Of a stretch of 64,000 nt of DNA, positions 2,702 to 35,794 are shown piece after piece. Position 1 is the stretch's first letter. Each line of letters begins with the position of its first letter. The translations under genes and the position numbers were made by a program. The notes under the pieces were generated by a model that was not told the DNA's origin, searched no databases, and worked only from the letters and a program-made list of their open reading frames with translations. The DNA comes from Desulfobacterium sp. (GTDB taxonomy: Bacteria > Desulfobacterota > Desulfobacteria > Desulfobacterales > Desulfobacteraceae): positions 124,001-188,000 of the forward strand of contig JAQYWC010000054.1 of assembly GCA_030145245.1 (NCBI GenBank), in the 5' to 3' direction.

Positions 2702-3550
2702 CTATCCCCGGCTATAGATAAGCAGTGCTCCAGTGCAACCAATGATACCTGTAATCTCTTGCCAGGTGAGGTTTTCTCCCAGCAGCAGCCAGGCGAATAT
2801 TGCTGTGGTTACCGGAACAAATGACATGAATAATGAGACCGTAATCGTTCCTAAATGGCGTATTGCATATGCAACACAGGAAAGGGCCACAATATTTACG
2901 ATAATTCCCTGGTAGGTTGCCTGCAAAATGATCTCAGAGACGGGTACCGCGAAACCGGTTGACGGGAAGAGGAACCAAAGCGGCAAAAAAAGCACCAGGT
3001 TTACAACCGGAACGACCACAAAAACATCCTTCCAGGTGAATCCCCATAGCCGCACACCCACCATGTGAAACGTATAAATAACAGCGGCACTGAGCAGCAG
3101 GGTAATTCCAAGAAAGTGCTCGGATGAAAAAAAGTTATTTCCTATCATGACAAGATTTGCCGCAAAAATAAGGGCAATAGCAGCATAGCGCACAGCGGAA
3201 ACCCGCTGCTTAAAACACAACCATGCGGCAATGGCACCAAACACAGGCAACATTCCATTTACCAGCACCCCGGCATGGGCAGCCCTAATTTCCATAAGAC
3301 CATAGAACGACACCATGGTATACGGAAAACCAACCCCCAGGCCAATGACCAGGTACTGGTACAGGGAAAACTTTTTCCACGGATAGCGGAAAATGAAGGG
3401 AAAAACGATAATAAAAGCCGTACAATACCGAAGCAGGGTTATATCTGCCGGGGTGAGCAGGGTGTGTACCCCATACCGGGAGATCGTTATCCAACCTGAC
3501 CATATAAGCACCACCAGCATCCCGGCAAGACAGGGTTTCCAGTTTTTCAA
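2702..3550 (-). CDS. EamA/DMT-family inner-membrane transporter
   Basis: A multi-pass inner-membrane protein of about 282 residues with roughly ten hydrophobic segments in two homologous halves, the usual EamA layout. The first half begins LVVLIWSGWITISRYGV and contains an LRYCTAFIIVFPF segment; the last helices contain PVTTAIFAWLLLGENLTWQE. Members export metabolites or amino acids, and the substrate cannot be read from sequence. The start is uncertain: a TTG at 3550 has AAAGGAAG at suitable distance, while a TTG at 3565 would overlap that site. It lies alone, pointing toward the decayed gene tail at 2401-2586. Confidence 0.85.
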   Translation of the reverse strand: MKNWKPCLAGMLVVLIWSGWITISRYGVHTLLTPADITLLRYCTAFIIVFPFIFRYPWKKFSLYQYLVIGLGVGFPYTMVSFYGLMEIRAAHAGVLVNGMLPVFGAIAAWLCFKQRVSAVRYAAIALIFAANLVMIGNNFFSSEHFLGITLLLSAAVIYTFHMVGVRLWGFTWKDVFVVVPVVNLVLFLPLWFLFPSTGFAVPVSEIILQATYQGIIVNIVALSCVAYAIRHLGTITVSLFMSFVPVTTAIFAWLLLGENLTWQEITGIIGCTGALLIYSRG

Positions 3551-3807
3551 AAATCTTCCTTTCAATTTTTTATAGAATAAATGAAATCACAAAGATCTCC
3601 TTCTACTCCTGAAAACAAACAATGTAAAGAGCGTGCTGTCTTTTTTAGTTTGGGTTTTTCTTGACGACCCAATTTATATATGTACAAATGTGGTATTCAC
3701 GAATCACATGTTTAAAACAAAATTCCAAGCGATCAGATGATTGTTTTGATTCAATGCTGGTAACCCAACGTATTGCTAACTGCCAAATATAAAAGGGGTA
3801 ATGTGCT

Positions 3808-14163: not shown

Positions 14164-14192
14164 TTGACATCCATACCTTTATCTTGTAGCAA
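14164..14192 (+). promoter_or_regulatory. Candidate sigma-70 promoter of the riboswitch leader
   Basis: A perfect TTGACA (14164-14169) is followed after 17 bases by TAGCAA (14187-14192), a weak -10. It lies directly before the cobalamin riboswitch, so transcription would start near 14200. Confidence 0.45.
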
Positions 14193-14194
14193 AA

Positions 14195-14396
14195 GAGTTG
14201 TTTTATCAGGTGCGAAAGCTTAATAGGGAATCCCGTTTGATTCGGGAACGAGCCCATCGCTGTGTTCGGGGACGAAAATTGCAATCATGTCACTGGGTAA
14301 ACAGCTGCCAGGTCCGGGTGTTTAAATGCCTGGCAGCCTATAACCGGGAAGACGCAGTCAGTAGAATGATCCGAAAGTCAGAAGACCTGCCTGGTA
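14195..14396 (+). ncRNA. Cobalamin (adenosylcobalamin-type) riboswitch
   Basis: The leader contains the ordered blocks of the cobalamin riboswitch: AATAGGGAA (14222-14230), the GATTCGGGAACGAGCCC block and CGCTGT that follow, GTCACTG (about 14289), a long hairpin GCTGCCAGG/CCTGGCAGC (14304-14337), CCGGGAAGAC (about 14344), and GAAAGTCAGAAGACCTGCC (about 14373-14391). Spacing and order fit the B12 box and accessory stems. The B12-box-like block CAGAAGACCTGCC is well preserved; the early block is somewhat diverged. It precedes a terminator and the ABC-2 exporter genes, so high cobalamin should switch the exporter off. Confidence 0.85.
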
Positions 14397-14452
14397 AGCG
14401 GATATGTTGCAGGGAATGGCAACCTGTCCAATGGTCTAATGGATAAAAAGGG

Positions 14453-14491
14453 AAATCCACAGATTGATTTATCTCAGTCTGTGGATTTTTT
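14453..14491 (+). terminator. Rho-independent terminator, expression platform of the riboswitch
   Basis: AAATCCACAGA (14453-14463) and TCTGTGGATTT (14478-14488) form a perfect 11-bp stem followed by a T-rich tract. It lies between the cobalamin aptamer and the exporter ATPase start. Confidence 0.8.
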
Positions 14492-14555
14492 GGTTTTTTG
14501 GGGGCTCAAAACCGATGTCAAGGCGTTTTGTAATCAAAACAGAAGGGAGAAGACA

Positions 14556-15428
14556 GTGCAGCTCTGTAACCTGAGCCGGACTGAAAAAACAATGATACGC
14601 GTAAATAACTTGATCAAGAACTATAAAAAGGTTGAGGCCCTTGCCGGGGTTGATATCCATGTGAAACCCGGTGAGATCTTTGCCTATCTCGGGCCCAACG
14701 GCGCGGGCAAGACCACCACCATACGGATTCTCACGGGGCTGACCCAGGCAAGTTCTGGTTCCTGCTGTATCAACGGATTCAACATTGAAAAGGAAGTCCG
14801 CCAGGCAAAGCAGCAGTACGGCCTGGTGCCCCAGGCCATAAATCTGGACCAGGAACTGACCGTGCAGGAGAACCTCATCATCCACGGGTGGCTGTACAGG
14901 ATGAAATCTTCCGAGATCTCCTCAAGAATCGATGCATTGCTCGATTATGTGGAACTGTTGGAAAAGAAAAAAAGCCAGGTCAAGACCCTGTCCGGGGGGA
15001 TGAAGAGGCGGCTCATGGTTGCAAGGGCCCTTCTCCATGGCCCAAAGGTGCTGTTCCTGGACGAACCCACGGTGGGGCTGGATCCTGCCATACGCAGGAA
15101 AATATGGGCCTTGATAAAAAAGATCCAGACCGGCGGCACCACCATTTTTCTGACCACCCATTACATTGAAGAGGCGGAATTTCTGGCCGACCGGGTGGCT
15201 TTTCTGGACCAGGGCAGGGTCGTGGCCCTGGATTCTCCTGAGCGGCTCATGGAAAGCCTTGGCGCCTGGGCCATTGACCGGCTGGTGGAGGATGGCATGG
15301 AAACGGTCTATTTCAAGACACGGAATGATGCCGAACGGTTCAACACCTTGAAATCGGAACAGTATACCTTGAGACGGGTGAATCTTGAAGACGCCTTCTT
15401 AGACTTAACAGGGAAAAAAGTAAAATGA
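14556..15428 (+). CDS. ABC-2 type exporter ATPase (NodI/DrrA-like)
   Basis: The ATP-binding subunit of an ABC-2 exporter. It has Walker A GPNGAGKTTT, Q-loop (LVPQAINLDQ), signature LSGGMKRRL, Walker B KVLFLDEPT and switch histidine LTTHY. The C-terminal section (LRRVNLEDAFLDLTG) matches the tail typical of this subgroup. GTG 14556 has GGGAG six bases upstream and is preferred; ATG 14592 (MIRVNNLIKNY) is the likely alternative, with a weaker ribosome site. A start at 14439 is unlikely because it would place the terminator inside the gene. It overlaps the permease gene by four bases (ATGA). The transported substrate is unknown; a cobalamin- or cobalt-related role is suggested only by the riboswitch. 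Confidence 0.93.
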   Translation: MQLCNLSRTEKTMIRVNNLIKNYKKVEALAGVDIHVKPGEIFAYLGPNGAGKTTTIRILTGLTQASSGSCCINGFNIEKEVRQAKQQYGLVPQAINLDQELTVQENLIIHGWLYRMKSSEISSRIDALLDYVELLEKKKSQVKTLSGGMKRRLMVARALLHGPKVLFLDEPTVGLDPAIRRKIWALIKKIQTGGTTIFLTTHYIEEAEFLADRVAFLDQGRVVALDSPERLMESLGAWAIDRLVEDGMETVYFKTRNDAERFNTLKSEQYTLRRVNLEDAFLDLTGKKVK

Positions 15429-16162
15429 TACACGGAATTATTGCCATCTATTTTCGGGAAATGCTCATCCTGAGACGACGTCTCACACGCCAGATTCCTT
15501 CCTGGTCCATCTCTCCGTTTCTATATCTCACGGCATTCAGCTACGCCGTAGGCCATGGGGTCGAAATAGAGGGGCACACCTACATGGAATTCCTCATTCC
15601 CGGACTCATTGCCATGAGCAGCATGACCCAGGCCTTTGCCATTGCAAGTGAGATCAATATCGCAAGGTTTTACTGGCATATCTTTGAAGAGTTCCAGGCT
15701 TCCCCCATCAGCAAGGTCTCCTATGTCGGAGGCGAGGTCCTGGCAGGCATGACCCGGGCCATGCTTTCCATTCTGGTGATCATGGCCCTGGGGTTTCTTT
15801 TCGGCGTAAGGCTCAACTATGGGCTGGCCTTTTTTATTGCGTTGCTGCTCAACAGTTTTGTGTTTGCCTCCCTGGCCGTGGCCCTTGCCATGGTGGTGAA
15901 ATCCCATGCCGACCAGTCCATGCTCAACAGCTTTATCATCACTCCCATGGCGTTTCTGGGCGGCACCTTCTTTCCCATTGACCGTCTTCCCAGCTGGGCC
16001 GGAGCGTTCCTGAACCTGTTGCCCCTGACCCATGCGTCCAAAGCGATCCGGGCGGCGTGTTTGAATCAGCCGGTGAGCATCTTTTCCTATGTTCTGCTGT
16101 TTGCCATCGGTGTCCTGTTCTTTTCCGTTGCTGTCAGGTGTGTGGAAAAGGCCAAGGATTAA
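15425..16162 (+). CDS. ABC-2 type exporter permease (NodJ/DrrB-like)
   Basis: The membrane subunit partnering the ATPase just upstream; the ATGA overlap indicates translational coupling. About 245 residues with six hydrophobic segments. It shows the ABC-2 signature region near the end: FIITPMAFLGGTFFPIDRLP followed by LNLLPLTHASKAIRAA. The start ATG 15425 is fixed by the overlap. The pair should export a substrate across the inner membrane. Its expression is predicted to be lowered by cobalamin through the upstream riboswitch. Confidence 0.93.
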   Translation: MIHGIIAIYFREMLILRRRLTRQIPSWSISPFLYLTAFSYAVGHGVEIEGHTYMEFLIPGLIAMSSMTQAFAIASEINIARFYWHIFEEFQASPISKVSYVGGEVLAGMTRAMLSILVIMALGFLFGVRLNYGLAFFIALLLNSFVFASLAVALAMVVKSHADQSMLNSFIITPMAFLGGTFFPIDRLPSWAGAFLNLLPLTHASKAIRAACLNQPVSIFSYVLLFAIGVLFFSVAVRCVEKAKD

Positions 16163-35696: not shown

Positions 35697-35794
35697 TGGC
35701 GGAAGTGCATAGGAATCGAACCTACCCGGGACGGTTTTAGCGCCCCACATCGGATTTGAAGTCCGAGGGCCCCACCAGTGAGCCGCGCACTTCC
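35697..35794 (-). tRNA. selC: tRNA-Sec (anticodon UCA)
   Basis: A 98-base tRNA on the - strand including an encoded CCA. The acceptor stem is GGAAGTGC/GCACTTCC (8 bp, as in bacterial tRNA-Sec), with discriminator G. The anticodon stem-loop CGGACTTCAAATCCG carries UCA. A long variable arm and a T-arm GGTAGGTTCGATTCC follow. The organism should therefore decode UGA as selenocysteine. A near-consensus sigma-70 promoter lies just upstream. Confidence 0.97.

Follow-up and report, generated by a model that had tools for sequence, protein, structure and literature searches.

The window, a 64,000-nucleotide stretch of a 6.4 Mb genome (G000:C79:124001-188000), carries a cobalamin riboswitch, a predicted termination platform and a two-gene ABC-2 exporter in succession on one strand (Table 1). 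The cobalamin riboswitch that an earlier note had proposed for this site was confirmed by a full-length match to the covariance model, which was the sole match above the RF00174 gathering score in the 64 kb. It lies 5' of a same-strand gene, the next gene start being that of the ATPase. We preferred the ATG at 14592 as this start over an in-frame GTG at 14556, which the leader alignment makes less likely because the matching GTG in the leader of a relative (L088) directly precedes TAG. The permease gene overlaps the ATPase gene by 4 bases; the interval originally outlined, 14164-15428, closes at the end of the ATPase, but the permease extends the exporter to 16162. On the other side of the leader, the gene for a 1400-aa SNF2-type helicase is directed away, and the leader therefore needs a promoter of its own. 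The TTGACA promoter of the earlier note was borne out in part: the hexamer is present and occupies a similar place in three leaders, but the promoter scan had no entry there and no convincing -10 box was seen after it, leaving a candidate -35 element in place of a full promoter. Elsewhere in the window, a selenocysteine tRNA was found at 35701-35794 on the minus strand (RF01852, 75.7 bits), suggesting that the organism probably makes selenoproteins.

Table 1. Features of the exporter locus, with positions counted from the first letter of the window
Feature	Position	Strand	Evidence
TTGACA, candidate -35 element	14164-14169	+	read from sequence
Cobalamin riboswitch aptamer	14191-14408	+	RF00174, 84.2 bits, gathering score 31.5, E 2.7e-19, model 1-189
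B12 box AGTCAGAAGACCTGCC	14376-14391	+	pattern scan
Hairpin 3' of aptamer, loop AGGGAATG	14400-14429	+	predicted fold
Candidate antiterminator	14433-14465	+	predicted fold, -5.9 kcal/mol; 3' arm is part of terminator 5' arm
Intrinsic terminator	14450-14491 or 14453-14491	+	15-18 bp stem, 6-nt loop, T-run; terminator scan and fold
ABC transporter ATPase	14592-15428	+	PF00005, 1.2e-33; GPNGAGKT, LSGGM, VLFLDEP
ABC-2 permease	15425-16162	+	PF01061, 1.7e-23; ~245 aa

The terminator that had been placed before the exporter was recovered, and it also folds at the same place in two relatives. The number of terminators called by the scanner between 13900 and 17400 showed no excess (5 versus a shuffle mean of 4.6), but the stem at 14450-14491 has 18 pairs compared with 5 or 6 in the other four. 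The hairpin at 14400-14429 is one that we take to be P13-like, and the candidate antiterminator and the terminator would, judged by their predicted pairing, be mutually exclusive. An RF00174 match likewise stands before the orthologous pair in L088 (81.7 bits) and in L089 of Desulfocicer vacuolatum (96.2 bits), whose genomes we infer from matching coordinates to be G308 and G301, respectively, and a fortuitous neighbor is less likely given that the riboswitch precedes the pair in these two relatives too. The distance from TTGACA to CAGGTGC is 43, 43 and 40 nt across the three exporter leaders, which in alignment have the block CCAATGGTCT(T)AATGGAT...AAATCCACAGATTGA in common. Two alternative folds are predicted for this shared block, one being the antiterminator (-5.9 kcal/mol in all three) and the other the terminator (-15.3 to -21.1 kcal/mol), to which the block contributes its 3' arm. 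The pairs of the predicted expression platform are kept across six related leaders, with all 10 antiterminator pairs formed in 6/6 and 13-15 of 15 terminator pairs formed, and the post-aptamer hairpin forms 7-10 of its 10 pairs. Conservation of the predicted antiterminator counts as support short of proof, given that few pairs vary and the six leaders are close kin.

By pattern scan, only the window, L088 and L089, which belong to closely related genomes, have a riboswitch directly before the pair; this and the other pattern-scan counts are lower bounds, since the scan of stretches misses 1 of the 15 known aptamers of the window's genome (that of L009). The order in L089, on one strand, is riboswitch-ATPase-permease-CobN. 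In L076 (G165), a riboswitch lies 6.3 kb upstream, immediately ahead of the gene that opens an operon-like row including the exporter, and in at least 12 other distinct loci one lies downstream of the permease on the same strand. At least six further genomes (G013, G073, G080, G178, G245 and G280) have an RF00174 match 13-24 kb upstream on the same strand. As a separate observation, tandem same-strand cobalamin riboswitches occur among the matches listed at G013:C81:326-860, G073:C8:36075-36555, G197:C110:14264-14755, G168:C1:4569526-4570000 and G280:C1:1232872-1233477, and G280 has 24 cobalamin riboswitches in all among the matches listed.

The two proteins have the features of an ABC-2, or type V ABC, exporter, namely nucleotide-binding motifs, an ABC2_membrane permease and, in the predicted model, a type V fold. 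The AlphaFold2 model of the permease (pLDDT 83.3) matched KpsM, Wzm, TarG, ABCG and ABCH proteins in Foldseek, with query TM-scores of 0.74 to KpsM (8tsh_C, 16% identity) and 0.69 to Wzm (6oih_C, 14% identity), whereas a PDB sequence search for the exporter at E 0.001 gave no match. The modeled fold points to a type V exporter and says nothing on its substrate. The best profile matches were generic and below cut-off (drrA, 278.1 of 312.45; for the permease PRK15066, presumably YadH-type, 94.4 of 225). The pair resembles DrrAB, NodIJ and PRK15066 in having a separate ATPase and a ~245-aa permease with Pfam ABC_tran and ABC2_membrane domains and the type V fold, but differs in scoring below the NCBIfam cut-offs of drrA, drrB, nodI, nodJ and PRK15066. 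The NodI/NodJ likeness in the earlier note is therefore one of similarity, and identity was rejected (NodI, 195.2-229.1 bits versus 424-549; NodJ, 67.9 versus 206.65). The nearest permeases in named records were those of Desulfobacterium sp. MAG9 (95%) and Desulfocicer vacuolatum DSM 3385 (84%).

Permease orthologs were found at E 1e-20 in 51 of 291 genomes of the same order, the window's own included. Our sample of 121 permeases (97 distinct) comprised 40 of the 54 same-order matches with their surroundings, the best 80 of 259 named relatives, and the window. Recurrent neighbors were found by clustering the open reading frames of the first 40 loci, the window and its upstream stretches, and family scans of examples identified them as CobN, a putative cobaltochelatase subunit (ChlD), a ChlI-like AAA protein, a TonB receptor, CbiZ, BtuR and an FecCD-type permease. 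In L048 the row reads CobN, TonB receptor, ChlD, ChlI, ATPase, permease and CbiZ, with profile scores of 974.6 for CobN (cut-off 822.05) and 789.5 for the putative cobaltochelatase subunit (cut-off 779.45), and ChlD-ChlI-ATPase-permease is a common gene order. Among the 76 distinct orthologs whose stretch extends 2.8 kb or more upstream, 31 have a ChlI on the same strand no farther than 2.2 kb upstream of the permease (measured between midpoints), a position that corresponds to the slot of the gene immediately before the ATPase.

A B12 or chelatase marker was present in the stretches of 47 of the 97 distinct orthologs, a count obtained with a marker set chosen post hoc, after synthesis clusters had been seen: the first set, chelatase genes and CbiZ, gave 43/97 and was widened after 13 stretches had been read by eye. 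By type, 43 orthologs have CobN, ChlD, ChlI or CbiZ and 4 have synthesis genes only. Markers were present in 30 of the 50 orthologs covered by 4 kb or more upstream and 3 kb or more downstream, a coverage cut of our own choice, and in 19 of the 35 covered by 9 kb or more on each side. The nearest match per marker type fell on the exporter's strand 161 times versus once on the opposite strand. None of 20 control stretches, which we placed at round coordinates in six genomes, held a marker (Fisher p 1.3e-6 for 30/50 versus 0/20). The remaining 50 distinct orthologs, including the window's own copy, have no gene marker in the stretch, and in 16 of the 35 loci with 9 kb on both sides this absence is real, with no short-contig effect. 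As gene order has it, the association of the exporter with B12 genes is strong but far from universal, and from the 50 unmarked copies it follows that the exporter family also works elsewhere or is regulated apart.

In a few loci, synthesis genes adjoin the exporter. In L117, CbiK, an FecCD-type permease, CbiL and BtuR stand before the pair and CobQ, CbiA and CbiC after it; this row also has an ATPase (by eye) and a periplasmic binding protein, and the start of its CbiK looks signal-like by eye. In L141, CbiK and CbiL come right after the exporter, and the CbiK start does not look signal-like by eye. The earlier note had set the riboswitch target apart from B12 uptake and synthesis, a view not supported by the orthologs, which turn up repeatedly in rows of the type CobN-TonB-ChlD-ChlI-(exporter)-CbiZ and also within cbi/cob clusters. 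Three Desulfamplus loci without a B12 marker have a similar-looking protein before the exporter (L095 8176-9150, L094 8263-9171 and L105 6021-6926), DUF2520/Rossmann-like by Pfam in L095 and judged by eye in the other two, and this arrangement may reflect a different role or substrate.

The exporter also co-occurs with one subfamily of ChlD. A close ChlD (at least 49% identity) is present in 26 of 291 genomes, and the exporter was found in 21 of these 26 compared with 30 of the 265 others (Fisher p 8e-14, kinship ignored), the ChlD and exporter surveys being assumed from their shared handles to cover the same 291 genomes. The cut for a close ChlD, about 630 bits or more plus one partial match (G062), was set after the data had been seen, and the count without G062 is 20/25. 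The exporter was found in none of the nine genomes with a distant ChlD only (42-44%), and G304, a 5.7 Mb genome of the window's genus in two contigs, had neither ChlD nor exporter at the cut-offs used. In a quick tree of the permeases, the copies of the window, L088 and L089 group with that of L048, which lies in the chelatase row, as a single clade (SH-aLRT 98), and the label of linked or unlinked changes 13-16 times versus about 32 in shuffles.

In the window's own genome, ChlD-ChlI lies about 40 kb upstream of the exporter on the same contig and strand and is not physically linked to it; the likeness of their leaders is the only direct link between the two. The exporter leader is 82% identical to the ChlD-operon leader of the same genome (78% in G308 and 86% in G301), compared with 57-64% identity between exporter leaders and three unrelated leaders. 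Judged by this similarity, the exporter carries the chelatase-operon kind of switch. Its leader is also 81% identical to that of a CobN-like gene (L012), but only 68% identical to the exporter leader of G301. The suggestion that the target falls outside B12 metabolism altogether was likewise not upheld, in that the exporter leader resembles both the ChlD and the CobN-like leaders of its genome. Given that it is about equally close to the L012 and ChlD leaders and farther from the G301 exporter leader, its history does not look like a single simple transfer; the pair may have left the operon with a copy of the leader once or more than once, or the leaders may have been homogenized. In G308 (L194), the CbiZ match starts 43 bp after ChlI with no exporter between them, and the exporter lies elsewhere. 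L192, the second ChlD-ChlI locus of G301 (Desulfocicer vacuolatum by coordinates), has a permease fragment at 3422-3751 (minus strand; residues 116-225, 56% identical) no more than about 20 bp from the end of ChlI, and this fragment is likely the remnant of a second exporter.

We consider it probable that the exporter is a member of a corrinoid-salvage and metal-chelatase regulon, controlled by the cobalamin riboswitch and terminator and produced under B12 shortage. The alternative that the pair is a general-purpose exporter of drugs or lipids, brought under B12 control fortuitously and with an incidental neighborhood, would suit the generic below-cut-off profile matches (drrA, PRK15066) and the half of the orthologs that lie away from B12 genes, but we regard it as unlikely in view of the better-covered orthologs near B12 markers (30/50 versus 0/20 controls, almost all on the same strand), the co-occurrence with one ChlD subfamily, and the kinship of the leader to that of the ChlD operon.

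The genome's other riboswitches give the regulon in which the exporter would take part. There are 15 cobalamin riboswitches in the genome, four others of which are on the window's contig, upstream of the window, and the exporter riboswitch ranks 14th of the 15 by score. Pfam searches on 10 riboswitch-led genes identified a RACo-type corrinoid activator, a ThiC-family protein, three TonB receptors, CbiK, an FecCD-type permease, an AraC-type regulator, a sodium:solute symporter and a CobN-type protein; the remaining riboswitch-led genes, by eye or similarity, are two TonB receptors, a membrane protein preceding a CobN row, ChlD and the exporter. A terminator-like hairpin lies within 160 nt of the riboswitch in 14/15 cases, as called by a custom hairpin script with no shuffle control. 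The riboswitch-led CbiK (PF06180, 3.5e-70) has an N-terminal hydrophobic stretch that looks signal-like by eye. The CobN gene adjoining ChlI is broken across several frames (L016 8365-11700; G000:C79 ~98.4-101.7 kb), which may reflect decay or an assembly error. Its five pieces are 58-75% identical to the D. vacuolatum CobN that directly follows the exporter, compared with 53% for the genome's other, full-length CobN, which lies about 21 kb beyond the broken one (L017 9728-13513).

Given that a cobalamin riboswitch with a termination platform precedes the exporter, repression by cobamides is the natural prediction. With adenosylcobalamin or another cobamide bound, the terminator would form and the exporter would not be made; when cobamide is short, the antiterminator would form instead, and the exporter would be made alongside the uptake receptors and the chelatase. 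Because B12 shortage would bring on its expression together with that of corrinoid receptors and a chelatase, the pump most plausibly moves something that arises in scavenging or cobalt handling. We tentatively propose that its substrate is a tetrapyrrole or corrinoid species handled by CobN-ChlD-ChlI, such as a metal-free, wrongly metallated or degraded ring, that is removed or secreted. The pair could then be, and we put this forward with equal caution, a bacterial exporter dedicated to a corrinoid or another tetrapyrrole and working with CobN-ChlD-ChlI only when B12 is short. Corrinoids scavenged by TonB receptors and BtuFCD would be remodeled by CbiZ, the chelatase would insert or remove the metal, and rings that are unusable or metal-free would be re-exported. 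Human ABCG2 is a precedent for a type V exporter that carries porphyrins.

Export could instead serve an earlier step, with a metal-free tetrapyrrole such as sirohydrochlorin or similar moved to the periplasm, where an exported CbiK would insert cobalt before BtuFCD-type importers return the ring. Desulfovibrio has a periplasmic CbiK, and the riboswitch-led CbiK of the window's own genome has its signal-like start by eye; the L117 row joins CbiK, importer-type genes, CbiL, BtuR, the exporter, CobQ and CbiA, and L141 has the exporter with CbiK and CbiL. The L141 CbiK, though, lacks a signal-like start by eye, and the 43 linked copies with CobN, ChlD, ChlI or CbiZ, versus 4 with synthesis genes only, point to the chelatase and CbiZ, so we give this route a low probability. 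A similarly low probability applies to export of finished cobamides by the pair, or to its secretion of a ligand that scavenges cobalt or corrinoids. The control and neighborhood that the exporter has in common with TonB receptors and importers would suit a secreted scavenging ligand, but no ligand-synthesis gene was seen among the recurrent neighbor families that have names (some have none), and an exporter of cobamide that is shut off by cobamide would be back to front. It is very improbable that the riboswitch is a decayed copy that no longer acts on the exporter, as its low rank in the genome (84.2 bits) and the lack of a good -10 box might suggest, in that three species retain the aptamer, hairpin, antiterminator and terminator in a leader that varies elsewhere.

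The portions of PMC4285132 drawn on here describe terminator-type cobalamin riboswitches that repress transcription in Dehalobacter restrictus, where five cobalamin riboswitches end in predicted terminators and the downstream genes rise on corrinoid starvation. The switch in the window likewise has a full-length RF00174 match, a B12 box, a post-aptamer hairpin and a terminator, but its target is an exporter pair. Targets beyond synthesis and import appear in the sections consulted of PMC545781 (nrdDG in Desulfovibrio vulgaris and Desulfuromonas) and of PMC2211319 (metE and a desaturase in metagenomes). The same portions of PMC4285132 describe a riboswitch-led operon-2 in D. restrictus with corrinoid-type ABC importers, two CbiZ, CobN and several magnesium chelatase subunits, whose expression climbs strongly under corrinoid starvation, whose first gene is repressed 346-fold by added corrinoid and some of whose proteins resemble those of a few delta-Proteobacteria. 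By this description its salvage content is like that of the exporter rows, whereas the words 'exporter', 'ABC-2' and 'efflux' are absent from the main text of PMC4285132. Clustering of CobN with magnesium chelatase genes is described for Chlorobium in the part of PMC8620254 used here. With regard to the class I chelatases CobN-ChlI-ChlD and the related heme de-chelatase HmuS, the exporter's recurrent neighbors include CobN and the putative cobaltochelatase subunit above their cut-offs; no ABC-2 exporter is tied to these chelatases in the text consulted of PMC12583661 and PMC7689651, and neither 'ABC transporter' nor 'exporter' appears in the main text of the former. Nor did the portions consulted of the open literature (including PMC545781, PMC2667541, PMC2211319 and PMC8620254) link any ABC-2 exporter with cobalamin riboswitches or with CobN-ChlD-ChlI. 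On the parts of the literature seen, the riboswitch itself is ordinary, and riboswitch-led salvage operons with CobN, magnesium chelatase and CbiZ genes are already known (PMC4285132). Within that same literature, the ABC-2 exporter as a recurrent part of the chelatase-salvage module is the element that was not found.

In summary, the similarity of the leaders suggests a natural case of a gene that lies outside the usual operon yet carries a copy of the operon's switch. The genome has both CbiK and CobN-ChlD-ChlI, which raises the question of what role a CobN-type chelatase has beside CbiK. The recurrence of the exporter in the same loci offers a handle on this point: once the exported compound is known, the direction in which the chelatase works, metal insertion or removal, may follow. 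If the reading of the pair as a dedicated exporter is true, import, remodeling and export would form a defined cycle in sulfate reducers.
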